Of a DNA stretch of 64,000 nucleotides, positions 1,570 to 25,300 are shown in pieces (positions within the stretch are counted from its first letter, which is position 1; each line of letters opens with the position of its first letter). This stretch comes from Adineta ricciae. Lineage: Eukaryota > Rotifera > Eurotatoria > Adinetida > Adinetidae. Where the stretch lies: assembly GCA_905250025.1 (NCBI GenBank), contig CAJNOJ010000137.1:124001-188000 (forward strand), read 5' to 3'. A program made the position numbers and the translations under genes. A model generated the notes under the pieces. That model made no database searches and was not told where the DNA came from. It saw only the letters and a program-made list of their open reading frames with translations.

Positions 1570-3362
1570 CCTCGAAGAGTTCGTCGAGAATTATAATCTA
1601 GAAAGAAAAAAGTATAATTTGCGTGTTACTTTAACACACATCCCAATAATTAGTCGTTCAGAAAGCAAACTTTTATAAGACAACAAATGCAGATCGGTGT
1701 TGTCAGCATCCACTGTTATTATTGCGTACTAAATATCTTTACTTTCCCCCGTTAGTTGTTGTCTTACTTCTCGAAAAAAGATATGATGAGTTATTTGTGG
1801 TGTTCATACCATTTATCTATATTTTTCGATCGTGAGACTGTGAAAAATATCTGCACGTTTCGGTGTTAGTTCTTTCCTCTCCTACGGAAAATGTTCTTTT
1901 GCTCATTCATGTATATGCCTTTTATTCTATGAGTGAATAAAACTACAAATGGACAGATAAAATGTTTTCTTTAACGACGTCTAAACAGAAAGTATGCTTT
2001 TTCTACCCATCATCACAATTCTTTACAAATTGAAAAGGAGAATTATGTGTCTGATCGGAAATTCTTTACTATCATTTGAAAATTTCAGATAAAAACGAAT
2101 TGTTCTCCTTCTTTGCACATCTTATATTGTCAATAGTGTAAATGGATAAAAACAATCGAAGATAAATATTAAATACAGTGTATCAGTTTGTACTCATAAG
2201 TCTAATTTATGAGTGAAAAGGTAGACTTAGCCAATACGTTTAAATCATTTTGTCTCTGTAGGATGCCGAAGCTGCGAATAAGAATAGATATTGATCGAGA
2301 TATTTGATCAATCGAAGCGGAAAATTTCAGCTGTGGTCCTCTTTAGCGAAAGAGATCACATTAAAAGAACTTTACGCTGCTTAATCCCTAGCTTTTGCAG
2401 CTCAGGTGAGCAATCAGACATTACAATCTTTGGACAATCGCATGTCTGACCATATACGATCTAGTAAAATCGAACAAGGATCGTACAAAAAAATCTTCTA
2501 AGAATCTTATGTAGAGATGTAGCAAGATCGATGCTCCCAACCTTGGTTAAAATCTCGGTGGTTCGTCGGAGAGTTTTGACTGGAAAGACAGATATCTTTA
2601 GTTATTCAAATTTTAGTAATTTTACCTCAGAGTTGTCAAAACTGATTTTGAATCCAACCAACACTATTGGAGATTAACTCCACTTAGATCGAGATCTCGT
2701 GGTCTCGGTATGTCACTATTCCCATTTCCTAAAAATACAGTGCGCACATGATGTTTTAGTCAATCTCGTAACGAATTTCGTTCATATTAAAGGTGCAAGG
2801 TCTGACATCCTGTTTTTTTATCTGAGGATAGCTTTCAGAACGAAAAATTGTATTGATGAAGAGTATACAGATCTAGCTTTATGTCTGTCTCACAATGTAA
2901 GTTTTCGACGTATGCCTTCAATGTCTCTGGTTTGTTTTTTCCTTCGCCTTTATAATATTATTCACGACATATTTGTCTGCGATAACAATGGGAGCAAAAA
3001 AAAGTACTTTATCTTTTCTAAACTGAAGAATGATATAAAGGTTGCACGTATGATACATATGGTTTTTCCCCATTATGATCAACATATCACAGCATTCTGT
3101 TTTTCGATGATAAAGCCAAATAAATGGGTTTTTCTCCAACTTATGAATCAGTAGATATGTACGGTAAGGAGAGATAAATATTTCTTGCAGGACGATAGTA
3201 AAGCAAGAGCACTTGTAAGTTATACAGAGGTGATGAAACATAGGATTAATCATTCGAATAAGTTTTAAAAGAAAGAAATTGTCAGTTAATTTTTATTTTC
3301 AGATAAATTACTTTCATTCGATCGCGAGTGTTACAGATTGGCCGGAAAATCCTAGTATTTCA
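1570..3362. other. intergenic region between a divergent gene pair
   Basis: Separates the coiled-coil gene on the minus strand from the giant gene on the plus strand. Open frames here (for example about 2699-3154 and its antisense) have no recognisable composition or motif and look accidental. Just upstream of the giant gene, a T-rich tract ending in CAG at about 3290-3301 is a plausible 3' splice site, so a short 5' exon of that gene could lie here unrecognised. Confidence 0.4.
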
Positions 3363-6300
3363 ATGGCATTTGCAAGCAATACACAGTGTTTTCACTATGA
3401 ACCTACAACAATACAAGAAGATCTAATAAATCAAATCAGAGAATTATCTGAACAAAACCCCGAATGGCCATCAGTTCCTATTCATGTATTTGATGTTGTG
3501 GATGATAATAATTCTGATCAGTTGGAACAAAAATTACGTGACGATATTCGAGAACATTTCGAAAAACGGATTATTCTCATTCCATACCATTCAGAAAACT
3601 CAAACCATGCGATAATTTTAATTGAATTTCAAGATAGTGAACACATTCTTCGTGCTGAATTTATTGGATCAAATGCTATTCTAGATCAACTACAAACGCA
3701 ACTTAATAAAGTCTATTCATCCGTCACTTTTCAGAAAAAAGATTGGATCTATCCTAACGATTCAGAAGTTGCTTTAAAACGAAACATTGAACATTTAATA
3801 TCAACCGTCGAAGGAAATCAACATTCTACAATGATCAATTCACAAATACATTTGTTATCTGGTACTGTATTCAGTGAAAATCAAACAAGCGTCTCCATTT
3901 CACAGGAAGGTAACGAAAATGAACTTGGGAGATTAAACCAGCAATTAAGTAGTCGTCTTGTCGAATTAAAAATTCGAGACGTGAATCTTTTACCTGAGAA
4001 AATCAAGCGAGCACAAGAATATATTAAAGATTGTGAAGACGACGGAAGAGCAGAAGAAGCTGATAAAGAAAAAGAACGCTTAAGGAAACTTGGACAATTG
4101 AAAATTCTTGTCGATAAAATTTCGCAGTTAGATGCTGTAGAATCGAATAGTACTGAGTGCAGTAGGCAAGTCGAATTTCTTCGGTTACAAGAAAAACTGA
4201 GTAGCAGCTTAGCACGTATGAAGATTCAAGATGAAAAATCTTTGCTGCAAAAAATTAAGAAGGCTAAGGAACGAATTAATGACTTTCAAGATGACAATAG
4301 AGTGGAAGAAGCAGAGAAAGAAAGTGAATATTTAGGAAAACTTCAAGAAATACAACAACTTATGAACGAAGTCGCTAAGTTTAATTCGGATATGCCCACC
4401 CTCCGTCGAATTGAAAGTCAAACAGAAACGACAGATCACAATATTTTGAGACACGAAGAGCACCATGGAGTTCCGCGAAACAGACTCCAACAAACTACAA
4501 CGGACCACAACGAACAGCAACCTGTTGATGTTGTTCCCTTGACTGAAACTCTACCTAATGTAGCCGGAAATGAACAAATGCAACAAAGATTACATCCCGA
4601 AAGCGATTTGACACGTATACCTTATTGTGCTGAGAGAACCATCATGGAACTCTTGAAACACTGCGTCCAAAAATCAGCCGCATTACAAGACCAAAATTTT
4701 CTAACTGACATGTTAAGTCAATTAGATACTCAGATGAAGCAACAAGAATTATTCTCCTTTGAAGTTAAAGCTTCTTTTGAAAGTTTAAGATCAGCGATAT
4801 GTAGTGGAACGAGTTCTAATTTAATGAATAGGCTGCAAGTACTTTTAAGAAAAATTCGACCTATCAATATTGACGAAACGCAAATACTTATTGATAAATC
4901 GAAAGATGCCGCTCATTTAATTCGTGACAAAGATGTTGTTCTATTAATCGGAGAAACCGGTAGTGGGAAATCGACCACCATCCATTTCCTTGCAGGTTCA
5001 CATATGCAGGAAGTTCAAGTCCCAATAGAGTCAAACAAATTCCTCCGACATATCGCTGCTGTTGAACCTATACATAATCTTGAATTAAAGAATGTCACAA
5101 GTAGTCCATTTCATAAATCAGAAACACGTTATATTGCACCAGTAACAATTGAACTTGAGAATGTTCCTGGTATTCGTGAAACCGGTGTAGTTATTTTATG
5201 CGATGCACCTGGTTTCGGTGATACTGCAGGTGCTGAAGTAGATATTGCGAATAGTGTTGGCATTCTCGAAGGTTTAGTAGGAGCTCGAAGTGTCAAGTTA
5301 CTGGTTTTATCAAATTTTCAGAACTTAGGTAAACGAGGGGAAGGCATTCAAAGATTGGCGCATATCGTGATCAACATGGTCAGTGATATAGCAGAGAGAC
5401 TTGACTCCATTATTTATGGTTTCACACAATATCCGGAAAAAGAAGATATTAATACTATATTAGTAGATATTATGGACTCGAGAGTAAATGCTGATCCCCG
5501 TTTGAAATCTGATCCTGCCTTTGTCACTGTATTGAAAGATATGATTGACAAAACCGAAGAGACTGTTTATCGGATTGATCCAATTCACGGTGATCGGAAA
5601 GTATTACTTAAGAAATTAAAACGTATGAAAGGTATTCTGTTTCCAGAAACAGCTTTTCGATTTTCAATAAGTGAAGAAACGCGAGCTACAATTGCTAGTC
5701 ATGTGGAACTCGATAGATATAATATTATTTGTGCAGTAAACCATAAAAACAACGAACTTGTCTTGTACTATCTAAACGATTTGAAGATGTTACAAGAATT
5801 AACGAAACAAAATGTTGTTCGTGATGCTTATGAAAGGTCGGTTCGTTGCATTAGTGAAACTATCGATAAGTGTTGTACAGATAAAAAGGAAAAATTCAAT
5901 CGAGCATTAAATAGTCAGGACGGATTAAAAGAAGATGATATTTCGGAATATAAGAATTCAGTTGAATATCTTCAACATACTCAAATCTTAAAAGAACATT
6001 TAGGATCGAGTTTATCACCACCAGAAATGTTAGTTCAAAATATTATTTTTCAGTTAAATCAGATAAAAAGTGTTTTGATTAAAAACGAATCATATAATCC
6101 TTTTGTTCGAGTATATTTAAATAATCTTTCATCATTGCGAATGCACTTTTTTCAACTTGAAACATACTATACAACTAGCTGTTCGGAATTTAAGGTTAGT
6201 TTTGATGAATTAGTAAAGTCATCAAAGAAGCTTATTCCAACGAACAATTTCAAAGAAATCGCAGAACGTATTCTAAGTATCTCGAAATCTTCAGAGATTT

Positions 6301-9300
6301 TAAAAGATCATTGTGATGATCGAACTGAAGCAGCATACTATGATTTGATCGAAGCCCTTTTAAAACATCTGAATAGTTATTGTGAAAAGGCCGATTGTCT
6401 TTTAAAAAAGAATCGATTAAATCCTGATGACACTGTGACTCTTCAAGAATATATGGAAATTTTAACATCTGCAAAAGAAAATTCTGCACTTAAAGATTGT
6501 ATAGCGCCCTATACTAATATGTTCACAACGCAAATAAGTACTTCCAGACAGGATCGTTTCAGACGGCAAGACTCGGAAGGATTTTTTAAAGACATAAATG
6601 CAATTCATCGAAGTTTTGTTTCAAGAATTGTCGATTATTTCAATGCGATTAAAACGAGAATCGAAGAACTTTTTCGAAGACAGAAAGATCACGCTCTAGA
6701 TGATATACACAGACTCATTACAGATATGGACGCCATTCGTTCTATTCCCGAACTAGAATCGAAAACTGTGGGAATCTATTACTGTACTGTTGAAAGTATC
6801 AATACTTATATGAAAGAATTCCAAATCGAAGCAGAAAATCTAGTTGTTACTATGAATAATCAATCAGGCACAGTCAACTATCGAAGTTTAGCTTTTTCAT
6901 TATCGCGTATAAAAAATGCTGATTGGATTGACCGTATTAGTCCAGGAACATATGATAACTTAATTCGTCGTGTTACTGTTGAGTTAGTTGAACAAGCATG
7001 TCGATTAGAAAGCAGTTTGTTGAAAATAGATTGTAGTTTAACATTTCCGGACAATGTTTGCAAAGCATATGATATTGTTGAAAAAATAGAATCGATGAGT
7101 CATTTGGAAAATACGATTCCTGAATTAGAAAAGTTTAGAAAGAATATCATTCAACGATTTTTACAATCGATTCAAGCGGTTTTCGATCGAATACAGTCGA
7201 TATTTGATTTACAGGACAAAGATGTTGATCTCATTAAACAAAAGTTAAACGGTTTAGAACAAACGAAAAAAGAATTTCTTCAGTTACATCCAGCATCAGT
7301 ACATTTACGTAAACATAATTACTCAGATATTCATGTTCTAGATAAGGAAATTGAGCAGTTAATTGAGAATCGTCAAGCCGAAGTTCGCGCAGTAGAAACT
7401 GAGCAACATCAGTTGACTGATAAAGTACGCAATGTGAACACAGTAATTAGCAGAAATCACCGTTTGTCTTTAGAAATAAATGAAAGTCCCATCGAAAACT
7501 CGCCGAACATGAATACACTGCCCACAAATAATTTAACTTCATTAGGATATTCTTGTATTGACGATGTGTATAGAGACCACCTAGGAACTAAAGACCGTCT
7601 TTTGAATATATCAAAACAAAATGAAGAAGCGACTAAAGAATTCAATAATCGTTTACGTCATCTTCGACTAATCAAAGTAGAATATCAATCACTTCTAGAA
7701 AACCATAAATTAATGTCTTCTGAAGAGATGAGTTTTTTAAAAACACAGGGATTTGAAAGTGTAGAATCACTTGATGAAGTGATTCGAGAAAAAATGAAAG
7801 TGATTAATGAGAGAGGTCAAAAGCAGACTTATTACTTCAGTAAAACAATCGATGCATCGACAGCAAATAGTGCGTTGATCTATCTTCATAAATGTGAAGA
7901 AGTCAGTGATGATCGTGTTCGAACGAATGCTATTCACACGAATGAAAATTTAAGGAAATATCTATTTGAATATGGAAAGTTTCTTGATCAAGTAATTAGA
8001 AATAAATTCGATTCAACAAAAAAGATTCCTCTCGATAATGATATTTGTCAACATTCTCAAGAATTGAGTATGCATTTACAAGAATTAACAAATTTAGAAA
8101 GATATTCAGCTGTTTTCGAATGTATCAAAGGAAAAGATAAAATCGATTATTGGCATATAACATTTTCCGATTTTCATCGCAACTTAACTCATGAAATTCA
8201 AATTCGTAAACAATCGTTTCAAGTTCAAGAACTAAAAGATCGCTTAACGATTGCACACGCATTAAGTTATGTAGATCGTTTTTGTGATAGTGGATCCTCC
8301 TCCATGAGTAGATTCGAAACTTTGTATATTCAGTATCATACAGAAGAAATAAAAGAATGTCGACAAGTGTATGGAACGATTTTAGATCATATTGAGAAAG
8401 AAGAGTATGCTAAAGCCGATATAGCGCTATCAAATATTAAAGAAGGTTCTTTAAATGCCAAAGATTTGGCTCAAATTGAACATGATCTGAAAAGTTCGCT
8501 GAATAAATTAATCAGTCAAACGAAAAGTACGGCTAGTTGGTTAAACGGAAAAATCGAAAAAGGAGATGAAAGTAATCAGTCGAAAATACGTCAAATAAAA
8601 GAAAATAGCGATAAAGTTCGAATAGCTGCGAATAAACATCGAATTTTCGATTTAGTTGATGACCGAACCCGAAATTCTTTAGCAAAATTCGATCAAGACA
8701 TGAGTCATATTTTGTCAACCGTTCTTTTAAGGGGTATTCAGTCGATTCAAGCATTTATCGACACGAATAGTTTTTCAGAAGCTGAACAAGGAATGGAAAA
8801 TCTTTGTTTAGTACAGCATGAATTAACCGATTATTATACATCAGAAGAAGTTCAGCGTAAAACAGATGAATTGAGGAATCGATTAGATAATGTAGTAAAT
8901 CAACTTTTGAAAGAAAATGATTTTGCTGATATAAGCAATTTCTCAAGCAATCCTCCGAGAGCTCTTCTTGAAAAACTAATCATGGTACCGCCACATGTTA
9001 GTTCGAGATTTAATCAAGTACACAAAACGATGTCTGATCGAATTCGAAATAGCTTTTCATCAGCGATTTCTGTTATATCTGGATTAACCTTAAAGGAGCG
9101 TACAGAGAAAGTGCGTGGATTAAAACAAGCGTTGTGTTTTTTACCGGATGACATGCAAACACAGTTTAGGGGACAGATTGAGGAATTGATTAATCAAAAT
9201 GTTAATGAAGAGAGAACAGAAAAACAACATCTAAATGACTTATTGAAGCGTGTACAAGTCGATGATAATGCCATTTCACAATTAGGACTATTAGCTGAAC

Positions 9301-12300
9301 ATTATAAGAGTGCAAATATGCATGAACTTCTGCAAATATTACGCGAACAATGTTTAAAGGAATTACATAGGTATAGAACAGAAATGCAGACTTCTGATAT
9401 TGAATCTACTGTTCAGGTTCTTAAGAAAATAGTTAAATATAAAAAATCTCTTGGTATATATGTTCCGGAAGCACTAGAGTTTTATTCAAGTGTTAGCAAG
9501 ATGATTCTGAAAAATTTTCTTGATTGCTGTGAAAATTTAGCGAACATATCTTCGATTGAGCAAAGTCAATCAGTTGAGAAAGCATTTGAAAATATGGTTA
9601 GCTACCTAAGACTCTCCGTTACATTGAATGAACAAGGAGACGGGGAATTGTTTTCAATAGATGATTTAGGAAAGGCAAACGATTCTGTTCTCGAAATGTC
9701 GAAATATTTAAAAGAAAATTCTGTAAAATTTCAGTCTGCTCTTAATGGAATGAATGTTACTGAATTGTATAAAACTGTTATCATTTCGAAGAAATACGAT
9801 AAACTTCTACAGAATATTAAGCGTTGTTCATCGATACATGAGCTCGTTGAAAGTTTACGTAAAGATATGAAATCGGTAATTTCATATTCAGATATGATAT
9901 CCAATCTTGAGACATTCGCTAATAGTCTCAAAAGTCAATTGAAAGTTGAACTTATTAATGATGTCACGACCAAATTTGAAATAGAACGCGATGCATTTTT
10001 TCAAAAGCTAATGAAGTTAATCGATACATACCGATCATTCAGTTCAAAATTTGACGGGATTTTATCAACTGCATCGGATGTAGGTAAAATGATCGAAGAC
10101 CTAAAGCAGAATATCGACAGAATTAGTCAACAATTATTAACGAAAGCATCGAGATTAGAACATTTTTCTGCAAATGATTCCGATGAATTTCGTATGTATT
10201 ATAATCATCTTCGCTCATTTCAAAAACATGTTCATATTCCCGAAATTAACATCAGTCATGTTCTAAATCAAGTTGAAGAGAAGGTTTTCGACAAAATACA
10301 CTCTTTACAACAAGAAATCTATGAATTTTATTCTGAGACCGAACGTGTTGCTAAAGTATTGTGTCGAATGAAGTTTTTTGCTGAAAATCTTTCCATGTTT
10401 GATACTTATATTAATACGAAGATCGATGAAGCGTTGAAAATGTATAAAGATAAAGAAGGAAGTATTGGTATAACAAATTTAACCGTCCTATTAGAAAGGG
10501 AAATTGAAGGTGCACGTATTATCAGTGAACATTCTTGTTTATCTGGAGAAGATCGACGTAAACGACGAGAAAGAATGCAAAAACAGGATGATATCGAGTA
10601 TGCGCTAAGTGAATTAAAGGGAGATACAATTTCAGAAGACATTTTACGTTCACGTTACAGAGAATTGAAAAAGAGATATGATACTTTAATAGCTGAAAAT
10701 CTAGCTTTTTTCTCTAAGAATGGTTCAAAAGAGCCTGATGTTCAAGTGTTAGTGACACAAATCAAATTTCTTGTTGGAACAGTTAAGCATGAGGCGAATT
10801 CTATCAGTTGGTCTGCTGCCTTTGTTGATCAGATTCCTGAACTCCTAGCACATATTTTTGCTCTTTGGACTTTACAAAATACCGAACATTACAATACTAT
10901 GCGAGGCATTCGTGCAGATCAGGCTTATTTACTCATGCCTCATGTCGGTCAAATCATTGCTATCTTTCGCTTACTCGGTATCGGATATAAGAGTTCCACA
11001 ATATTAGGAGGGACTCGATTATTGGGAACAAAAAAGATTTCCAGCGTTTTAACTAACAATTTAGTCGAGTTAGGTACTGGTGAGGGTAAATCCGTTGTCT
11101 TAGCGATCACAGCCTGTGTATTTGCTTTAACCGGAATCGATGTCAATTGTTCGTGTTATAGCGAAGTGCTGAGTACACGAGATAAGAATGATTTTACCTC
11201 TGTGTTTCGAACGCTTGGAATAGAAGAATATATCGAATATGGAACATTTAATAAGTTATGTGAGCAAGTACTAAATGAACGATGTAATGTACGAGAAAAA
11301 GTATGTGAAATGGTTCTCATGAACCAAAGTATGATTGCGAATTCAGATACGTCACGATCTAAACGTCCGAAAGTACTTTTGATTGATGAGGTTGATGTTT
11401 TTCTCAGTGATCGATTTTATGGTGGAATATATACACCATCGGTATGTTTGAATAAAGAACACGAGATACTAGCACTGTTAGATTCGATTTGGCAAAATAA
11501 GAACGAATTGCGAGTATTGAGAGATGTCACAGCTTTACTAGGTTATCAACAATGTGCACTTAAATATTTTAACTGGATGTTTCTTTTTGATGAAGCTATC
11601 AAAGATATGTTAGCCGCTTTAAAATCCTTTCAATCATCTACTTATATTGTACAGAATGATAAGATTGTCTATGTTGAAGGTGAATCAATCGTTGATAATG
11701 TTGTTCGTGGTTATGATACTATTTGGGCATATTACTATGAACATGAGAAAGGAAATATCAGTAGAGAAAGTTTACAAAATAATGTAGGAATTATTATCAG
11801 TTGTGGAACTATTTCTTATGCAGAAATGCCACATGAGTTTTCGTATATTGCTGGTGTGACTGGTACTTTAAAAACGCTTGCTACTACGGAGGTGAACATC
11901 TTAAAAGAAATCTATAAGATTGCGAAAATGACATATATACCATCAGTCTATGGAAGTAGTAATCGTACTTATGATTCAAGAAGTGATGTACGTGAGGTTC
12001 GAGAAGATGAATATTTTATGGAAATTCGTAATGAGATTGACACCCAACGTAATGCTAGTCGCGCAATTCTGATCTTTTTTGAATCAGAGGAAAAATTAAT
12101 AGCATTTTATAATTCGTCAAATCTATCTTCTCTTAGAGAACATGTACAAATTATTACGGAGAAAGTTTCTGCTAAAGATCGAGATATGTATGTTAAACGA
12201 GCAGCGACAGAAGGCCGAGTGACATTATTAACTCGAACATTTGGACGAGGAACTGATTTTATCTGTCGTACTCAAAAGCTTCTTTCGAACGGTGGTATTC

Positions 12301-13382
12301 ATGTTCTTCAAACATTTTTTTCGGAAGAACCTTCGGAAGAATACCAAATTATGGGTAGAGGAGCACGGCAAGGAGATCGAGGATCTTATCGAATGATTCT
12401 ACTCGGTAAGGACTTAGAATGGGTTCTTGGTTCAATTTGGCGAGAAAAACTTAACGATATTCAAGGCCCTTTGCTTTACGCAGAGTTAAAAAAGGCTCGT
12501 GATGCTTTGTATGAGAGTAAATGTAGTGCAAAACATCTTGGCATTCAGCAACGTAAAAAAGAACATACAGCTACAAAAGATTTTATGAACGCATTATTAT
12601 CGAAAGATATATTAGCAGTTAAGAATTTTCTAGGTAAACAAAATAAAGGAGTTGCTTTAATTGTGAATAGTTCACGTACTATCTTACTCATGGATGCGAC
12701 AGGTTCTATGTCAGGTTTATTGACAGCGGCGAAAGAAACTGTGTGTACTATGTTTGAACGTGCCACAGCCGTATTGGATAAACAGAAAACACCGAATAAT
12801 GGTTTTGAAATGCAAATGACAGCTTATCGAGATTATGATTGCATGAAAGAAGGTCTTCTTCAGAGTTCTTCTTGGGAATCAAAACCGACAAATCTAAGGT
12901 CTTTTATAAGTCAAATTACTGCCACAGGTGGTGAGGATTACCCTGAAGCTATTGAGATAGGATTATGGCATGCTGTCCAACAAAGTAATACGCCGGAAGG
13001 AATAGCTCAGGTTATTTTGATCGGAGATGCGCCAGCTAAGGATGAAACTGCAATAAAACATGACAGAATGACGTACGGTGGGGAAGCATATTGGAATGCG
13101 ACTAGTTATAGAACTCCAACGCATTATGCAAAAGAAGTGAGAAAGCTGAAGGAGAAAGATATTCCTATTCATACATTTTATCTTAATGATGGAGCACGAA
13201 TGAATTTTGAAGAGATTGCACGAGAAACATCAGGACATTGTAAACGACTAGATATTCATTCTACAGAAGGTGCTGAGTTGCTTACTCATTTTGTTACCGA
13301 AGAAATTTTAAGAAAAACAGGCGGTGAAGATGCAGCAAAACTTTATCAAAAAATGTTTGTCAAAAAATCTTTTCTATCCTAA
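3279..13382 (+). CDS. giant GTPase-like / SecA-like ATPase / vWA protein
   Basis: About 3,340-3,367 residues in one uninterrupted frame. Position 3279 is a TTG; the likely real start is the ATG at 3363 or an upstream exon spliced at about 3302. Numbered from 3279, a P-loop GETGSGKS lies at 558-565 and a DAPGFGDT (G3/Walker B-like) at 642, as in AIG1/septin-like GTPases. Residues about 800-2,550 are helical and coiled-coil-like. A SecA-like motor follows: GTGEGKS at 2599-2605 (SecA has GTGEGKT), DEVD at 2703-2706, GVTGT at 2859 (SecA GMTGT) and GRGARQGD at 3026 (SecA GRAGRQGD), with spacing close to SecA for the first three. A vWA domain follows with DATGSMS at 3139-3145 and a downstream YRDYD and GGEDYPEA, the pattern of alpha-kinase-associated vWA domains. 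There is no signal peptide or membrane segment, so it is probably cytosolic. A poly(A) signal AATAAA lies at 13636. Its function is unknown; an energy-driven protein remodelling or binding machine is inference. Confidence 0.85.
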   Translation: MSVNFYFQINYFHSIASVTDWPENPSISMAFASNTQCFHYEPTTIQEDLINQIRELSEQNPEWPSVPIHVFDVVDDNNSDQLEQKLRDDIREHFEKRIILIPYHSENSNHAIILIEFQDSEHILRAEFIGSNAILDQLQTQLNKVYSSVTFQKKDWIYPNDSEVALKRNIEHLISTVEGNQHSTMINSQIHLLSGTVFSENQTSVSISQEGNENELGRLNQQLSSRLVELKIRDVNLLPEKIKRAQEYIKDCEDDGRAEEADKEKERLRKLGQLKILVDKISQLDAVESNSTECSRQVEFLRLQEKLSSSLARMKIQDEKSLLQKIKKAKERINDFQDDNRVEEAEKESEYLGKLQEIQQLMNEVAKFNSDMPTLRRIESQTETTDHNILRHEEHHGVPRNRLQQTTTDHNEQQPVDVVPLTETLPNVAGNEQMQQRLHPESDLTRIPYCAERTIMELLKHCVQKSAALQDQNFLTDMLSQLDTQMKQQELFSFEVKASFESLRSAICSGTSSNLMNRLQVLLRKIRPINIDETQILIDKSKDAAHLIRDKDVVLLIGETGSGKSTTIHFLAGSHMQEVQVPIESNKFLRHIAAVEPIHNLELKNVTSSPFHKSETRYIAPVTIELENVPGIRETGVVILCDAPGFGDTAGAEVDIANSVGILEGLVGARSVKLLVLSNFQNLGKRGEGIQRLAHIVINMVSDIAERLDSIIYGFTQYPEKEDINTILVDIMDSRVNADPRLKSDPAFVTVLKDMIDKTEETVYRIDPIHGDRKVLLKKLKRMKGILFPETAFRFSISEETRATIASHVELDRYNIICAVNHKNNELVLYYLNDLKMLQELTKQNVVRDAYERSVRCISETIDKCCTDKKEKFNRALNSQDGLKEDDISEYKNSVEYLQHTQILKEHLGSSLSPPEMLVQNIIFQLNQIKSVLIKNESYNPFVRVYLNNLSSLRMHFFQLETYYTTSCSEFKVSFDELVKSSKKLIPTNNFKEIAERILSISKSSEILKDHCDDRTEAAYYDLIEALLKHLNSYCEKADCLLKKNRLNPDDTVTLQEYMEILTSAKENSALKDCIAPYTNMFTTQISTSRQDRFRRQDSEGFFKDINAIHRSFVSRIVDYFNAIKTRIEELFRRQKDHALDDIHRLITDMDAIRSIPELESKTVGIYYCTVESINTYMKEFQIEAENLVVTMNNQSGTVNYRSLAFSLSRIKNADWIDRISPGTYDNLIRRVTVELVEQACRLESSLLKIDCSLTFPDNVCKAYDIVEKIESMSHLENTIPELEKFRKNIIQRFLQSIQAVFDRIQSIFDLQDKDVDLIKQKLNGLEQTKKEFLQLHPASVHLRKHNYSDIHVLDKEIEQLIENRQAEVRAVETEQHQLTDKVRNVNTVISRNHRLSLEINESPIENSPNMNTLPTNNLTSLGYSCIDDVYRDHLGTKDRLLNISKQNEEATKEFNNRLRHLRLIKVEYQSLLENHKLMSSEEMSFLKTQGFESVESLDEVIREKMKVINERGQKQTYYFSKTIDASTANSALIYLHKCEEVSDDRVRTNAIHTNENLRKYLFEYGKFLDQVIRNKFDSTKKIPLDNDICQHSQELSMHLQELTNLERYSAVFECIKGKDKIDYWHITFSDFHRNLTHEIQIRKQSFQVQELKDRLTIAHALSYVDRFCDSGSSSMSRFETLYIQYHTEEIKECRQVYGTILDHIEKEEYAKADIALSNIKEGSLNAKDLAQIEHDLKSSLNKLISQTKSTASWLNGKIEKGDESNQSKIRQIKENSDKVRIAANKHRIFDLVDDRTRNSLAKFDQDMSHILSTVLLRGIQSIQAFIDTNSFSEAEQGMENLCLVQHELTDYYTSEEVQRKTDELRNRLDNVVNQLLKENDFADISNFSSNPPRALLEKLIMVPPHVSSRFNQVHKTMSDRIRNSFSSAISVISGLTLKERTEKVRGLKQALCFLPDDMQTQFRGQIEELINQNVNEERTEKQHLNDLLKRVQVDDNAISQLGLLAEHYKSANMHELLQILREQCLKELHRYRTEMQTSDIESTVQVLKKIVKYKKSLGIYVPEALEFYSSVSKMILKNFLDCCENLANISSIEQSQSVEKAFENMVSYLRLSVTLNEQGDGELFSIDDLGKANDSVLEMSKYLKENSVKFQSALNGMNVTELYKTVIISKKYDKLLQNIKRCSSIHELVESLRKDMKSVISYSDMISNLETFANSLKSQLKVELINDVTTKFEIERDAFFQKLMKLIDTYRSFSSKFDGILSTASDVGKMIEDLKQNIDRISQQLLTKASRLEHFSANDSDEFRMYYNHLRSFQKHVHIPEINISHVLNQVEEKVFDKIHSLQQEIYEFYSETERVAKVLCRMKFFAENLSMFDTYINTKIDEALKMYKDKEGSIGITNLTVLLEREIEGARIISEHSCLSGEDRRKRRERMQKQDDIEYALSELKGDTISEDILRSRYRELKKRYDTLIAENLAFFSKNGSKEPDVQVLVTQIKFLVGTVKHEANSISWSAAFVDQIPELLAHIFALWTLQNTEHYNTMRGIRADQAYLLMPHVGQIIAIFRLLGIGYKSSTILGGTRLLGTKKISSVLTNNLVELGTGEGKSVVLAITACVFALTGIDVNCSCYSEVLSTRDKNDFTSVFRTLGIEEYIEYGTFNKLCEQVLNERCNVREKVCEMVLMNQSMIANSDTSRSKRPKVLLIDEVDVFLSDRFYGGIYTPSVCLNKEHEILALLDSIWQNKNELRVLRDVTALLGYQQCALKYFNWMFLFDEAIKDMLAALKSFQSSTYIVQNDKIVYVEGESIVDNVVRGYDTIWAYYYEHEKGNISRESLQNNVGIIISCGTISYAEMPHEFSYIAGVTGTLKTLATTEVNILKEIYKIAKMTYIPSVYGSSNRTYDSRSDVREVREDEYFMEIRNEIDTQRNASRAILIFFESEEKLIAFYNSSNLSSLREHVQIITEKVSAKDRDMYVKRAATEGRVTLLTRTFGRGTDFICRTQKLLSNGGIHVLQTFFSEEPSEEYQIMGRGARQGDRGSYRMILLGKDLEWVLGSIWREKLNDIQGPLLYAELKKARDALYESKCSAKHLGIQQRKKEHTATKDFMNALLSKDILAVKNFLGKQNKGVALIVNSSRTILLMDATGSMSGLLTAAKETVCTMFERATAVLDKQKTPNNGFEMQMTAYRDYDCMKEGLLQSSSWESKPTNLRSFISQITATGGEDYPEAIEIGLWHAVQQSNTPEGIAQVILIGDAPAKDETAIKHDRMTYGGEAYWNATSYRTPTHYAKEVRKLKEKDIPIHTFYLNDGARMNFEEIARETSGHCKRLDIHSTEGAELLTHFVTEEILRKTGGEDAAKLYQKMFVKKSFLS

Positions 13383-14710
13383 ACGTGACTTGCTCGCACT
13401 TTTTTTTATTCTAATCTACATTGCAAAATTTTATCACGACAAGTGTAAATTGTTCCGTCATTTATCTTTTTTCATGTGATTATAGATGAACATTATCTGC
13501 TACTTTTTTGTCATTAAGTTCGTGGCTTTTTATTTTCTATTTGTATTCAACTAATTTTATTTTAACAGTTTTATTTAATCTTTTTAATTATTGTATTCAA
13601 GAGTTTTTTGTCATCTAATTCAGAATTTCGGTCTCAATAAATTGAACTAATCGACAAACATCTCATTTGTGAATATGATTTCACACCACTCTTTCAGTCA
13701 AAGGTAATACAAGTCAGCATCGACGAGCGGGATGAGGGTGAGGGTGTGGGTGAGAGTGTTCTATGATAAAGAAAGTCAAATCTATCGGTTTAGTTAATTT
13801 CTGTGTTAGTGATATAGATTACGATTACAGAATTATGCCTTAGATAAATCACGAAAATTTGCAAGAGGTTGACCATTTTTTTGTTGGACAGATAATACCA
13901 GAAATTCTTATGATGCTATAATATATGCAGAGTATTTCAATTAACAAATCCGCGTACATCCTTTTTTCTACGAGATAAAAAAAGATCTGAATAGTTTAAT
14001 ACAAAACTGACAGCATCTGGTCTTGAGCTTTAGTTTTAGTTTTTTTCTATTTACATTATTATGATCTCTGTACTCAAATATTCTTGTATAACAAGAGTTT
14101 CTTGAGTAAATATCTAGATGTACAAAACCGTCACAAGTTGTTAATGATCTTATATGGTTGGTCTAAATGCATTGTTACACACTCTATCGGGACTTCTCTA
14201 ATTGAATTAAATGTTCTCGTTGGCTAAATTCCGACGATAAATGTCAAGCTCGATTAATTCAAATTTTCACTAGTCTTTAAAATGCCTCACGGATAATCGT
14301 TCTTTAGGTGCATTTATATACAGAAATGCCGTATAATTCCGAATAAAGACTGAGAAAGAAAGGTTCGTCGAGGTATAAGGATCTATGCAAGGATAAACAT
14401 TGTTTCCGAAGAACTGCTCAAGTTTGTTAAAAGTTTTAAAGAACTTTTTCCATGCGCTCCAACTAATGTTTCCGACGACATTCAGATGTCGCCTAGTTTT
14501 TATTAACGTCAGAGATCAGTTAACATTTTTTTTAAATTTGAAAAACAGTCGGATAGATAACGTCGATTATGCATGCGTATACAACTGCTGATCGATTTGA
14601 CCGACAGCTGTTTGTCTTCGTCGCCATCGTTTCAAATGAATTTCAAGTAAAACATAAAATAATTGGTGACGAAATCGTTCTGATGCACCCAGATAAATAT
14701 AAAATGGGCT
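13383..14710. other. intergenic region with G-rich tract and start of a duplicated block
   Basis: Holds the 3' flank of the giant gene, a degenerate G-rich minisatellite at about 13728-13760 made of GGGTGA/GGGTGT-like units, and from about 13772 the non-coding part of a block that recurs at about 62032. No gene or RNA recognised. Confidence 0.6.
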
Positions 14711-20817: not shown

Positions 20818-23578
20818 TCAATTAATGAATCTGCTTAATCTTTTAATTCTTTTTTTTCGATAACGTTTCCTGGTGCTTGGTAGCTGCCGTTGTAACCGAT
20901 TTATTGTAGTTTTAAGCATTTTGCCAATTTCTTTTCCTTCCAATGATGGGTGTTTATCGCTGGGTTTACACATACTATATAGTTGCTGCTTTGTGGATGC
21001 TTGAGAACCATCTTGATCTAGGATAAAGATATGTACAAAACTTCCTTTTTCTCTAATCAAACTTACCACTCTTGATTTTGAATAACGATAGAGCCCATTC
21101 CCAACAATCGTCAAGTTCTTCATCTGAGAAAGTAAAATCGTCTGGCACATGATTTATAAGGAGACGTAAAGATTTGAGACAAGTCTCTAGAGCTTGTGAA
21201 TTCAATCGGCGGGATCGAGCATAGCTTTTTGCCAGACACATATAACATCGAGCTATATCATCAGCTACGGTCATTTCCATACGATGATCCATATCGGACA
21301 ATAGAAGATTAAAGGCATTGATAAATATTTGTACATTATGCCTGGGTCGGAGTAGTCCGATTTCACACCAGCAGATAGCTATTAGGTCACGTGTACCGAC
21401 TTCTTGATAGGGTTTGAAATTATTAACAGCTTCTCTATAGTATTTGATCGCCTTCCGACAATCCTTGTGTCCGTACAAGCTTGCTAGATCTTTACATCTG
21501 TGCGCCAGATCATAACGACTTGATCGGTCGTATTGAACGATCTTTTTGCGAATTTGTACTTCACTCTCAAGAAATTCAATGAGTTGCTGTTGTTGACCAT
21601 CGTTTTGAAATAAATATTCTGATAAGTCACGATATGCACCAGCAATGAGAGGACCGAACCTCTTCAAATCGGCTTTAGTGCTGATATATTGCAAGTACTG
21701 ATGCACATTGCGATTGTTTTGCTGTTCATCTACCTCATTTTTAAAAAGAGGTTTATTCATCGCTATACTAATGAAGATTCTTTCGAATAACTCTGTGTCC
21801 GTGCTAATTTCTGGAAGTATTTCTTGAAAATTGTCCCATGCAAGAGATGGATTTCCAACGATTTTATGTATTTGTGCGATCTTAACCTCAAATAGAAAAT
21901 AAATTATTGAGTATAACAGCTCTCCTCTATAAATGGCTTACTTTTCTCGTTATATAATGAATATCATTTTGATTCGTAGCATATTTTTCTGCTCTCAGAA
22001 AATTTTCAAGAGCAAGATCATATTTACCAAGACATTTGAATAATGTCGCTATGCAATCGTATAACATCGACAAAGTTAGATATGAAATCGAAGAATTGAT
22101 ACGTGGAAGTACTGGTTGAGCAAATAGAGCGATACCTTTCAATTCAAGTCTGGATACATTCGTATGAGCAACTCGATTAGAAGTCGAACCTAATGTTACA
22201 ACATCCTCATCACCAATTACAAGTTCACGAATGAGAGATATAATATGATCTACTAGTAATGCACAATCATCGTTTGTAGTATCATTGTCGACAATTATTG
22301 TTCTTAAACAAGCATCTAGTTTAACGAGATAACTCAAATATTCATATCTCAGATCGTAAGTTTCTGTGAGTTGTAATAATGTTACATTCCATACAGCCGT
22401 ATTTTCATCATATACAATTGGCATTGGAAAAAATGTGTATGTCGGAGCAAAAAGTACTTCATCTTCTGCACCCTCAAAATGACTCAAATGATCGATGGAT
22501 GCAGCACTTTTTCCAAATAAATTCCATGTACAACTACCAATTTTAAATATAACTGGTTGCTCCGCAGTATCACGATTGGAATCATGTGAGCCAACTCCAG
22601 CATAGATCTCAGCCAACATTAAGTTTTTCGTTGTCGATAGAAAAGTATTGAGATAGAGCATCCTCTGCTCTTTCAAGAACTCTATTTCAGTTTTAGATAT
22701 TCTCTGACCACGATACACCGGCTCTTTTCGCCAATCTGCGTCTTTACTGTTGTCAGCTTCTTTCTTCAGTTGTTGACTAAGGTCGTAAATGAAAAAATGT
22801 AAAAGAAATATTTTATGCTGATCTAGTTGTCGCAATACGCGATTGAATAGTTGATATAGAATGCCTTCTCGCGTATACCTGGCAACAGCCATGTGAGAGT
22901 CATAAGTATCATTGAATTCATTTATGAATTTTAGAGCAGGTTCGTTGTCAAGATACAATTTTCGGCATTCATTAACAAAGTTTTCCTTTCCGTTAGCAAC
23001 AGGCGGAATCTCTTGAAGAGCTTCCATGATATATGGGAACCAATGTATATCCGTTCGTGAATATAACCCAGTTGTTCGCTCTTCATTACTCGAAAGAGCG
23101 GAAAAGGGCAGCGTAGAATCGATTTCCATGTTCTGTCGAAGAAAGACTCGAATGTCTTGAGAGAGCTGAAACAGTAAGTCGTTTGGATGCTTGAACATTT
23201 TTGGTATTATCTAGGATCAAAACAGTAATTCAGAATTGTAGTGGAACATCATAGAATAATACTTACTTGTTGATAGACATGCGTAGTGTCAGAAGTATGT
23301 TCGTCGTTTGAGTTCTCTTCGTAGGTATAAATCGAACGAACTTGAGAAAGACTCTGGATTTGATTTTGTAATGGTAGATAACATCAAGATGCAACGATAA
23401 CGAAGATTTGCTTATTGTTTATACTTCGAATGTTTTCTATACAGATTTCAATTTGTGTGAAAAATTTCAAATAATCAATAATTCTCCGCAATCGTGAACG
23501 TTCTATTTTATATTCATTTAATGGATCATTTTGCTTGTCATCAAGCCAAAGAACACTGTATTCAGTAATTCGATCCAT
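20818..23578 (-). pseudogene. ADP-ribosyltransferase (ART) with TPR-like C-terminus, in-frame stop in exon 1
   Basis: Four exons on the minus strand: 23578-23267, 23210-21942, 21886-21067 and 21017-20818. Introns are 56, 55 and 49 nt and all joins keep phase (866 codons before the stop). Exon 1 encodes an N-terminal domain starting VLWLDD, typical of bdelloid ART proteins, but contains an in-frame TGA at 23384-23386; the frame after it still matches the family, so this is a point lesion. Exon 2 carries the arginine-specific ART signature R-S-E: YRGQ (R about 271), TFLSTT (S about 296) and EDEVLF (ExE about 343-345). Exons 2-4 then give TPR-like helices and a strongly basic C-terminus. Such enzymes transfer ADP-ribose from NAD+ to protein side chains. 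An internal ATG at 23198 in exon 2 would still yield the full catalytic domain, so a shortened active product is possible. It lies just behind a PARG-like gene. Confidence 0.8.
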
Positions 23579-23602
23579 ATCGCTTTATCTACATACTATT
23601 TA

Positions 23603-25300
23603 TTAAAATAATNTGTAGAGAGGTTGTTTCTTGTAAGGATAGCCATCTTGTTCAGTTCCGCGAAACACAGTGATGCCTGCTGTGTAGATGCCTCCAAACT
23701 CTTCCATCGGATAGAAGTCACCGAATCCTTTCAATGGTTTAAGTTCACCCTTTGGTGTGTAGTAGAATCTCTCTGATCGAGTTCGATCAGCTAATTCTCC
23801 ATCGAGACTGTGATAGTAGTCGGAACGGCGAAAAATGTTTTCTTCTTGTGCACCATCACCTTTTCGATAGCCACCACCTGGACTAGTTGCATTTGCCATG
23901 TTGAGCAGCAATGGTCGATGCCCTTTTGCCACCAGCTGTTCATAGAGAACAAGACAATCTTCTTCGACGACTTGAACAGTTGTTTTTGGATAGGGTGTTT
24001 GGAAATCTGTTTGTGACAGTGTTTTTCTTGTGAATAGTTTGGATTGGTGATTGTAGCCAATGGTTTGCATTCGTTCAAGTTTTAGTTTGACCAGAGTGTC
24101 ATCGACAGTATACTGTTTCTTTCTTAGGGTGCCTATAGTATTGAGCATAACAGTCACCCGTAGTAGATGTCTTGTAAGATCATAGCCTTTGGCAGGAATA
24201 GCTGCTGCTTTGTTCATTTGCTGTAGGAAGTTCTGAGCATTCCACTTGAAGCGAAATATGGGATGTTGATGATCATTGATGATTGTGGTGATATCAGGTT
24301 TGATATCCAACATATCTGTATCATACCAGTTTAAAGCATCGAGTTCACATGAATCCGGATCGCTGACTCGAGTGTGTGGCTTAATGGCCAAGGGTTTGCC
24401 ATCTATTCCGAAGCCTCCAATGTCCAAACATTCATGAAAATGATTTATGTCGTTCAATTCAATGATGAGTTTGTCATTAACACGTTTATGTGATGCAACT
24501 CGGTTGTGAAATAGTTTGTTGTGAAGTATTTTCTCAACTTCGGTATCATTGTGAACGGGTGAAATGAGTACTCGGTAGGAAAGTTTATGTTTTTTGGATA
24601 TGGAGTGTTCATCGATTTTTAGTGTGGCCTCTTTTGCCCATTTCCTGAGAGACTTGGGTGCTATCACAATCGCATTACCACTTTGTTTATTGTACTGTGT
24701 ATGGAGTGAGGTTTTGTGTAGTGAAGGTTCACCAAGTTGAACAGCAATAGCTGACATGAGTTTTTCGTTATTAGTGCTTGTTGGTAAGTCTTCGAAAAAA
24801 CAACAGTCAGCACGTGGGTAAACAGTAGCAAACGCAGCATCGATTCTGAAGTCGGGTGTAGTGGCTGCTTGAATTAGTTCAGCAAACTTTTTGTAACAGA
24901 TTCGAAAGACGTTGGGGAACTGATCGGAGACCGTTTCGCAACGACGTGTCTTTGATGTTTTATATGCGTTTGCATACCGTTGTGCAACTTCATCAGCCGC
25001 AAGAGTCTTCTTGAGTTCTGAATCAACTACGATGTAAGAGTCAAGTTCGAGTTCTTCGACAAATGATATATTAGTGCCACTATTCTTGGAAAGGACAGTT
25101 GTCTCAACCTCGGAAATCAGGTGATGTTTGTCATCTTCATTTAGCATATTGATGACAGCGACACCCAGTGTGGAATAACATTTGACACTTTGTACATCTA
25201 GGCGATGGCCTGTCTTCAAACGAGTCTTGATTTGTTCTTCGAGTTCTTCGTCATCGACGTTCACAGGAATATCAGGTATGTAAACAATTAAATTAGCCAT
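23603..25300 (-). CDS. microbial-type poly(ADP-ribose) glycohydrolase, 3' end missing
   Basis: About 565 residues from the ATG at 25300. The N-terminal half has no known enzyme motif; its start (residues 1-90) has an RRM-like alternation of strands and helices. The C-terminal half carries the PARG signature, GGG followed after seven residues by QEE (PGGGYRKGDGAQEE, residues about 473-486), preceded by LLNMANAT, the macrodomain-like fold of the PARG_cat/TIGR02452 family. This enzyme class hydrolyses ADP-ribose chains. The frame stops just after YPYKKQPLY at a codon containing the single N of the window (23613), before the conserved C-terminal strands of the family, so the gene is truncated here or the assembly is wrong here. 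The next gene on the same strand starts only 24 nt further on. Confidence 0.8.
   Translation of the reverse strand: MANLIVYIPDIPVNVDDEELEEQIKTRLKTGHRLDVQSVKCYSTLGVAVINMLNEDDKHHLISEVETTVLSKNSGTNISFVEELELDSYIVVDSELKKTLAADEVAQRYANAYKTSKTRRCETVSDQFPNVFRICYKKFAELIQAATTPDFRIDAAFATVYPRADCCFFEDLPTSTNNEKLMSAIAVQLGEPSLHKTSLHTQYNKQSGNAIVIAPKSLRKWAKEATLKIDEHSISKKHKLSYRVLISPVHNDTEVEKILHNKLFHNRVASHKRVNDKLIIELNDINHFHECLDIGGFGIDGKPLAIKPHTRVSDPDSCELDALNWYDTDMLDIKPDITTIINDHQHPIFRFKWNAQNFLQQMNKAAAIPAKGYDLTRHLLRVTVMLNTIGTLRKKQYTVDDTLVKLKLERMQTIGYNHQSKLFTRKTLSQTDFQTPYPKTTVQVVEEDCLVLYEQLVAKGHRPLLLNMANATSPGGGYRKGDGAQEENIFRRSDYYHSLDGELADRTRSERFYYTPKGELKPLKGFGDFYPMEEFGGIYTAGITVFRGTEQDGYPYKKQPLYXLF
23613..23613. other. 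ambiguous base (N), possible assembly join
   Basis: This is the only N in the window. It falls in the last codons of the PARG-like frame and 35 nt before the ATG of the ADP-ribosyltransferase. The 3' end of one gene and any promoter of the next are both missing here, which suggests a collapsed gap or mis-join. Confidence 0.7.

Follow-up and report, generated by a model that had tools for sequence, protein, structure and literature searches.

A giant gene joining a GTPase-like region, a SecA-like motor and a vWA domain in the rotifer Adineta ricciae, and its relatives in bacteria

What might a SecA-like motor do in an animal when it is carried in one chain with a GTPase-like region and a vWA domain, and how did it come to be there? 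These questions are raised by a gene of the rotifer Adineta ricciae that lies in the 64,000-nucleotide stretch of contig CAJNOJ010000137.1 analysed here (positions 124,001 to 188,000; hereafter the window). The initial annotation regarded SecA as unexpected in an animal genome, a view at odds with a report of 2013 in which insects and Daphnia are described as carrying giant secA-domain genes, with relatives of these in Wolbachia and Amoebophilus (PMC3639933). Elsewhere, the SecA domain of phage WO is described as closer to invertebrates than to bacteria (PMC5062602), a eukaryotic-like secA is mentioned in PMC9203015, a SecA DEAD-like protein is tabled among eukaryotic proteins horizontally transferred to Legionella (PMC4256840), a SecA DEAD-like transcript is recorded from Daphnia similoides (PMC5037449) and secondary SecA_DEAD proteins are noted in several bacterial phyla (PMC4452313). 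The passages of the cited papers that note animal SecA-like genes give no function for them, and the main text of a study of foreign genes in bdelloid rotifers (PMC3499245) does not contain the word SecA.

The open frame and its domains

The open reading frame list of the window gives a single frame on the forward strand at 3279-13382, of 3,367 amino acids counted from a TTG at 3279; residue numbers below count along this frame from that TTG, the point at which the list happens to begin it. The ATG at 3363 is more likely to be the real start, since the start methionine aligns in both sister genes that reach this point (C281 and C373), and the protein would then have 3,339 residues. From this ATG to its TAA (3363..13382, forward strand), the coding frame contains neither an inner stop nor an intron, which bears out the intron-free 10.1-kb frame described initially. 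With bases treated as independent and at the base composition found here, a given run of 3,339 codons would be free of stops with a chance of about 1e-110; all other open frames in the window have at most 658 residues. A splice-acceptor-like ttttcag, found by eye, ends at 3302, from which a non-coding 5' exon upstream of the ATG is possible, and an AATAAA at 13636..13641 (forward strand), 254 bases past the stop, is a possible poly(A) signal. The encoded parts, all on the forward strand, follow in the order N-terminal domain, G-domain region, helix-type arm, pre-motor segment, SecA-like motor and vWA domain, and the motifs named in the initial annotation are all present (GETGSGKST, DAPGFGDT, TGEGKS, DEVD, GVTGT, QIMGRGARQGD and DATGSM).

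The N-terminal domain (residues 29-200; 3363..3878) was seen in three animal copies only and had no match in the PDB at E up to 10. It shows a faint likeness to a RickCE/Ulp1-type peptidase region, with the Cys absent (hhalign probability 23%, for a stretch chosen by the analyst). The stretch compared belongs to a protein of Candidatus Megaera and itself falls below the Pfam cut-off (24.8 versus 27); when 20 tiled segments were compared with the N-terminal domain, the segment over this stretch gave 17% and the next 3%. The link to peptidases is thus a weak one.

In the G-domain region (residues 430-760; 4566..5558), the G1 motif GETGSGKST (residue 558; 4950-4976) and the G3 motif DAPGFGDT (residue 642; 5202-5225) are intact. 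The G4 position, [NT]KxD in TRAFAC-type GTPases, reads FTQYP, which is degenerate, versus an intact TKMD in the bacterial relative G001, and the GTP specificity of the window protein is therefore uncertain. In the Pfam scan of the window protein no GTPase family profile exceeded its cut-off; nSTAND3 did so over the P-loop part only (27.8 versus 27.2), and MMR_HSR1 did so in one bacterial relative (27.1 versus 21.9). A profile of the region gave weak P-loop matches alone in the PDB (Midasin, 7e-4; GTPase Der, 0.0036). The comparison with AIG1, septin and dynamin GTPases that had been suggested yielded no family, as the AIG1/GIMAP, septin and dynamin profiles had no match to the window protein at E up to 1; Dynamin_N reached 18 bits in the bacterial protein P0010, under the cut-off of 27. 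Among animal giant or immune GTPases, the VLIG/GVIN, GBP and GIMAP proteins likewise have a long helical part and occur in several copies, and VLIG genes are single-exon. The window protein differs from them in its lack of an AIG1/GIMAP match, and to our knowledge none of them carries a SecA-like motor or a vWA domain.

Residues 761-2415 (5559..10523) form a long helix-type spacer. Gly and Pro together make up 3.6% of residues 760-2415 versus 7.0% of the motor, a composition that fits a helical arm of about 1,650 residues and agrees with the roughly 1,700 helical residues noted earlier. The three full-architecture bacterial relatives have arms of similar length, and clear sequence homology between these and the arm of the window protein was not established.

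A conserved pre-motor segment (residues 2416-2589; 10524..11045) leads into the motor. It is matched in all eight bacterial members of clade A, the name given here to the giant GTPase-SecA-like(-vWA) proteins, with E values from 1e-18 to 3e-4 for a searched set of 14 proteins. The motor itself (residues 2590-3060; 11046..12458) is identified by Pfam, PDB and profile matches as well as by its motifs: the Walker A motif TGEGKS (residue 2600; 11076-11093), DEVD (residue 2703; 11385-11396), GVTGT (residue 2859; 11853-11867), GRGTDF (residue 2989; 12243-12260) and motif VI, QIMGRGARQGD (residue 3023; 12345-12377). A SecA profile was the main check asked of this region, and Pfam SecA_DEAD matches residues 2591-2868 at 41.3 bits (cut-off 24.6). 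It also exceeds its cut-off in all six clade relatives scanned, namely three sister genes (39.4, 25.6 and 32.6 bits) and three bacterial proteins (36.5, 42.9 and 45.3 bits). P-loop_SecA, at 23.2 bits, is under its cut-off of 27; motifs V and VI are intact and the PDB alignment covers the region, with phmmer linking the window protein to SecA at E 3.7e-9 across residues 2592-3041. When a four-row profile of the last 952 residues was compared with the PDB, SecA chains were best (4e-19) and the next fold was the RNA helicase MSS116 (0.0027). That touch on MSS116, together with the DEAD-type fold, would suit a nucleic-acid helicase whose SecA-like RecA pair acts on RNA or DNA. However, the best SecA chain is about sixteen orders of magnitude better than MSS116, and no nucleic-acid-binding domain exceeded its cut-off in the window protein or its sisters; we consider a helicase improbable.

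Like canonical SecA and SecA2, to which the profile match at 4e-19 points, the motor has two parts and carries TGEGK, DEVD, G(V/M)TGT, GRGTD and GRxxRQGD. A true bacterial preprotein translocase, fused to other domains and exporting through a SecY-type channel, could accordingly be imagined, with SecA as the closest solved structure to the motor. Unlike canonical SecA, however, the window protein has no recognisable PPXD or helical scaffold and wing, and it falls in a separate clade. Neither SecA_PP_bind nor SecA_SW matched the window protein (E up to 1), its three sisters (E up to 0.1) or three bacterial relatives (E up to 0.01); the window protein has a segment of SecA_PP_bind-like length that is unlike it in sequence. 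Motif VI and the vWA motif are separated by about 100 residues, which leaves little room for scaffold and wing domains, and in a profile comparison with four canonical SecAs the second motor half alone was aligned (188 columns). A canonical-type SecA frame is also found in each of the three bacterial genomes tested. Because of the missing PPXD and scaffold-wing matches, the short gap and these separate canonical SecAs, a role as a SecYEG translocase seems unlikely for the window protein, and we regard the fused translocase as a whole as very improbable. In addition to the motor, the window protein has a G domain, an arm and a vWA domain that canonical SecA and SecA2 lack. In a crude hydropathy scan, its most hydrophobic stretch was the helix after the Walker A motif of the motor, so no membrane helix is apparent.

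The C-terminal vWA domain (residues 3125-3367; 12651..13379) that had been read from the motifs is upheld by Pfam VWA_4 (28.4 bits; cut-off 27), by a profile derived from animal copies and by the motifs DATGSM (the DxSxS-type MIDAS; residue 3139; 12693-12710), ITATGGED and IGDAP. Besides the window protein, only C281 exceeds the VWA_4 cut-off; C364, C373 and the three bacteria scanned have no VWA_4 listing. DATGSM also occurs in three bacteria. Since Pfam lists no vWA family for P0008, the one of these that was scanned, the bacterial vWA domain is recognised by the animal-derived profile and DATGSM.

A resident gene family under selection

SecA_DEAD matches occur at 16 places in the 130-Mb animal genome (G000), and three of these are sisters of the window gene on other contigs. 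C281 (3,213 residues) and C373 (3,112 residues) have the whole domain order, each in one open frame; C364 runs for 1,471 residues until its contig ends and keeps the motor motifs and DATGSM. The sisters are 39-49% identical to the window protein across long stretches; C281, C373 and C364 show 46%, 42% and 48% identity over alignment A1, and 64%, 56% and 58% over the last 950 residues. Decayed pieces also occur, with three TGA and one TAG in C508, two TGA in C389 and one TAG in C1014; these and C373:26346-27614 are decayed or partial relatives of the window gene. As open sisters coexist with decayed pieces, copies appear to have been born, kept and lost within the animal genome.

The setting of the window gene is likewise that of an animal gene. 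Neighbouring open frames on the contig encode 7tm_1, ART, PARG, NHL, Kelch, VWA and AAA domains, and codon usage in the window gene correlates with that of seven neighbouring frames at r 0.875, versus 0.34-0.76 for six bacterial clade relatives. Bacterial contamination or a recent endosymbiont insertion could draw on the architecture that is common to the gene and its bacterial relatives. Yet the neighbours, the codon usage, the spread of four diverged copies and of decayed pieces over different contigs, and a motor identity of 31-38% to three bacteria all stand against it, and we find it barely credible. The contamination that had been raised as a possible source is therefore contradicted: the window gene is resident in the animal genome, as one of four large family members. 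Among its neighbours, the frames at 21927-25300 on the minus strand carry an arginine ADP-ribosyltransferase domain and a microbial-type PARG domain, possibly a writer and an eraser of ADP-ribose side by side.

For the window gene and C281, the dN/dS values are 0.26/1.12 in the motor, 0.42/1.71 in the G domain, 0.29/2.13 in the vWA domain and 0.54/1.21 in the helical part, with dS near saturation. With dN well below dS in the domains compared, the large copies are, on this coding-sequence evidence, under purifying selection. A dying or neutral horizontally acquired gene, functionless at present, would be in keeping with the decayed relatives in C508, C389 and C1014 and with the degenerate vWA domain of C373, in which the MIDAS is lost and the frame stops a few codons early. 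However, the window gene and C281 retain every motif looked for, C364 retains its motor motifs and DATGSM, and the low dN and the 3,339 stop-free codons argue further against decay of the window gene, which we judge highly improbable.

Bacterial relatives and the direction of transfer

When the motor alignment was used for a pattern-based scan of a collection of bacterial and archaeal genomes, 162 candidate stretches emerged. Three of these encode a relative, one in a MAG of Chlamydiae (L040) and the others in MAGs of gammaproteobacteria (L041 and L042). Whole-genome searches of chosen bacterial groups, at E up to 1e-30, found relatives in 4 of 232 Chlamydiota (one already known), in 1 of 36 genomes from the order of G002 (G002 itself), in the single genome from the order of G003 (itself) and in 4 of 369 genomes sampled from the class of G003 (one known); three of the last four belong to clade A and one, G382, lies outside it. 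Clade A thus includes eight bacteria in total. In three of them (G003 with P0008, G331 and G075), which are two gammaproteobacteria and one Chlamydiota genome, the G domain, pre-motor segment, motor and vWA domain stand in order, with arms of 1,553-1,784 residues. With profiles built from animal copies only and E values for the set of 14 proteins, G003, G331 and G075 gave 2.6e-29, 1.4e-22 and 8.5e-9 for the G domain, 5.1e-104, 1e-111 and 8.1e-99 for the motor, and 2.4e-25, 2.3e-23 and 1.9e-16 for the vWA domain.

Four further bacteria (G402, G100, G002 and G001, whose contig ends at motif VI) have the G domain and motor without the vWA domain. By the same animal-derived profiles the G domain was found in seven of the eight, the contig of G050 ending before it could appear, and the vWA domain was not seen in five of the eight, the contig of G001 ending before its position. 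The clade-A order of G domain, long helix-type arm, pre-motor segment and motor is held by the window protein. Context was checked for two of the eight bacterial loci, and the neighbours are bacterial in both: NhaA, SpoVR, DUF444 and PrkA beside P0008 (L042), and PheT and RNase G beside P0010 (L041). In one relative (G402; L063:1434-9809), the motor motifs are altered to SGQGKS, DELDK and RRGMDA, and this motor is perhaps inactive.

Other carriers and roles were also considered. A viral origin of clade A was rejected, as neither of two scans of viral_contigs, run with clade-A alignments A2 and A5 and two short peptide patterns apiece, gave a relative; two phage records matched, one from a Staphylococcus phage (23% across 47% of the query) and the other a vWA protein. 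Plasmid carriage was set aside likewise: the C-terminal part of G003 had no match among plasmid records, and that of the window protein matched 17, of which the 15 listed show 23-30% identity across no more than 59% of the query and include seven annotated secA or secA2 and two clade-B Rickettsiales proteins. An anti-phage defence system was rejected because no PADLOC model matched the three proteins scanned.

In a 29-row motor tree, support is 100/100 both for a grouping of the four animal genes and for the 13-row clade A around it, whose remaining rows are the eight bacteria and one more animal protein, C451; canonical SecA and a second group, clade B, stand apart. Before this tree was built, rot2_C505 (a 148-residue fragment) and L048 and L051 (duplicates of L050 and L046) were removed; the C451:61242 frame, a broken C323 copy at 82208, C508, C389, C1014, C373:26346, C411 and C323:25136, some of them broken or fragmentary, also lie outside it. 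When the pre-motor segment was added (20 rows), the animal four grouped with G402 and the vWA-bearing bacteria (81/95). In AU tests chosen post hoc, a constraint uniting all eight clade-A bacteria was weakly rejected (p-AU 0.032), as was one uniting all five animal proteins (p 0.036); grouping the animal four with the vWA-bearing bacteria was not rejected (p 0.27). In the phylogeny of the SecA-like domain that had been called for, the animal genes thus fall among bacterial ones, by weak post hoc tests.

The initial annotation proposed acquisition from a bacterium, with domain fusion accompanying or following it. The sharing with bacteria stands, through the full-architecture relatives and the position of the animal genes among bacterial ones. 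The fusion does not: because G domain, arm, motor and vWA domain are already joined in three bacteria, the joining was not invented by this animal. Nor does the absence of introns point to a bacterial source, since PMC3639933 warns against such an inference. Since this design recurs in a few Chlamydiae and gammaproteobacteria, it has probably moved between microbes and the animal and been retained.

The reverse path, a eukaryotic origin in a protist or animal followed by several transfers into intracellular bacteria, is what PMC3639933 argues in the case of the insect and Wolbachia giant secA genes. It would account for the eukaryote-like length and for the patchy distribution in bacteria (4 of 232 Chlamydiota; three clade-A members in 369 genomes sampled from the class of G003). 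However, the vWA-bearing bacteria are far more diverged, with end branches of 0.79-1.11, than the four animal genes (0.21-0.35), and the eight bacteria together were weakly rejected in the post hoc test, some end branches being long. We consider a eukaryotic origin doubtful, though it is the foremost alternative. Transfer from bacteria to animal is favoured rather than established, because the tests are post hoc, the tree has three long end branches and it includes no further eukaryote; our reading leans weakly in that direction.

Clade B (99/98) is a second giant family. It includes eight animal frames (C31, C97 twice, C165, C275, C11, C323 and C212), plasmid proteins of Candidatus Megaera (5,225 residues; L036) and Candidatus Bandiella (2,966 residues), and another protein of G002. 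Both animal proteins compared with the Megaera protein are collinear with it (P0002, 30% over 1,303 residues; P0004, 38.5% over 810). SecA_PP_bind was scanned in these two, exceeding its cut-off of 23.5 in P0002 (C275; 29.1) and falling below it in P0004 (C97). The clade-B animal frames (L009-L026) are giant and SecA-like, of 1,004-3,753 residues, and ten viral-collection contigs (L065-L074), which may be prophages or misbinned bacterial DNA, have clade-B relatives, the match in L066 being covered by a 3,556-residue frame. The longest frame among the SecA-like places, of 5,303 residues, is at G000:C451:61242-61784. On the same contig, L039:3288-7100 encodes a clade-A motor, 33% identical to that of the window protein, behind ankyrin-like repeats recognised by eye; neither a G domain nor a vWA domain was matched in the part of the C451 protein examined.

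The giant secA genes of PMC3639933, from insects, Daphnia and protists as well as Wolbachia (wBol1_1091/1092) and Amoebophilus (Aasi_1610/1144), are likewise very long, show little evidence of true introns, place a SecA domain in animals and are linked to horizontal movement between hosts and intracellular bacteria. Unlike clade A, they are described without the terms GTPase and von Willebrand in the main text of that paper. Clade B, to which the Megaera plasmid protein is related, may be their counterpart.

A proposed protein-remodelling machine

We give an even chance to the reading that this resident, selected gene, in a clade shared with Chlamydiota and gammaproteobacteria, encodes a soluble, GTP-gated and ATP-driven protein-remodelling machine, a mechanism that we infer from its motifs. 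The intact G1 and G3 motifs suggest, despite the degenerate G4, that the N-terminal P-loop G domain would act as a nucleotide switch over assembly or recruitment, and the helical arm of about 1,650 residues would space it from the motor. As Walker A, DEVD, TGT, GRGTD and the arginine-bearing motif VI are intact, the motor is predicted to be ATP-driven and of the SecA kind, and its RecA pair would use ATP hydrolysis to pull on a polypeptide or remodel it. The DATGSM, TGG and GDAP motifs of the vWA domain suggest a metal-dependent binding site, which may hold a substrate or partner, as the vWA partners of MoxR-type motors do. The machine would be soluble and would operate without SecYEG.

The nearest functional analogy, we infer, is a motor with a vWA co-chaperone, whose assembly would here be under GTPase control. 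MoxR-vWA pairs are described as chaperone-cochaperone cores of conflict systems (PMC8195603) and likewise pair a motor with a vWA domain; the window protein differs in that its motor is SecA-like instead of AAA+ and shares one chain with the vWA domain. The effectors of Amoebophilus asiaticus, which are directed at the host, include GIMAP-type GTPase and SecA-like helicase-related domains (PMC3482391); in that description, the domains are not said to be joined in one protein, and no vWA domain is named. These effectors and the SecA of phage WO (PMC5062602) suggest a setting of conflict between host and intracellular microbes. Bacteria might use the protein as a machine for self-protection or in the manner of an effector, and a copy captured by the animal might serve protein quality control or, more conjecturally, intracellular immunity. 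More tentatively still, and with low confidence, clade A could be an undescribed family of soluble giant NTPases, common to intracellular bacteria and animals and built from a GTPase switch, a helical arm of roughly 1,600 residues, a SecA-derived motor and a vWA clamp, in which a SecA motor freed from the translocon and controlled by GTP unfolds or dismantles proteins at the host-microbe interface and was captured for intracellular animal defence.

A GTPase-SecA-vWA protein is the subject of no paper among the literature matches listed, with most subscription journals and bioRxiv outside the coverage. As far as these listings show, animal SecA-like genes were already known, and the GTPase-arm-motor-vWA architecture, the clade and the full-length bacterial relatives are new. 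The window gene appears to encode, in an animal, a machine that has its motifs intact and is under selection, and some bacterial relatives share its entire architecture. Together they would make both a role for a SecA-type motor without SecYEG and the capture by an animal of genes from intracellular bacteria directly testable.
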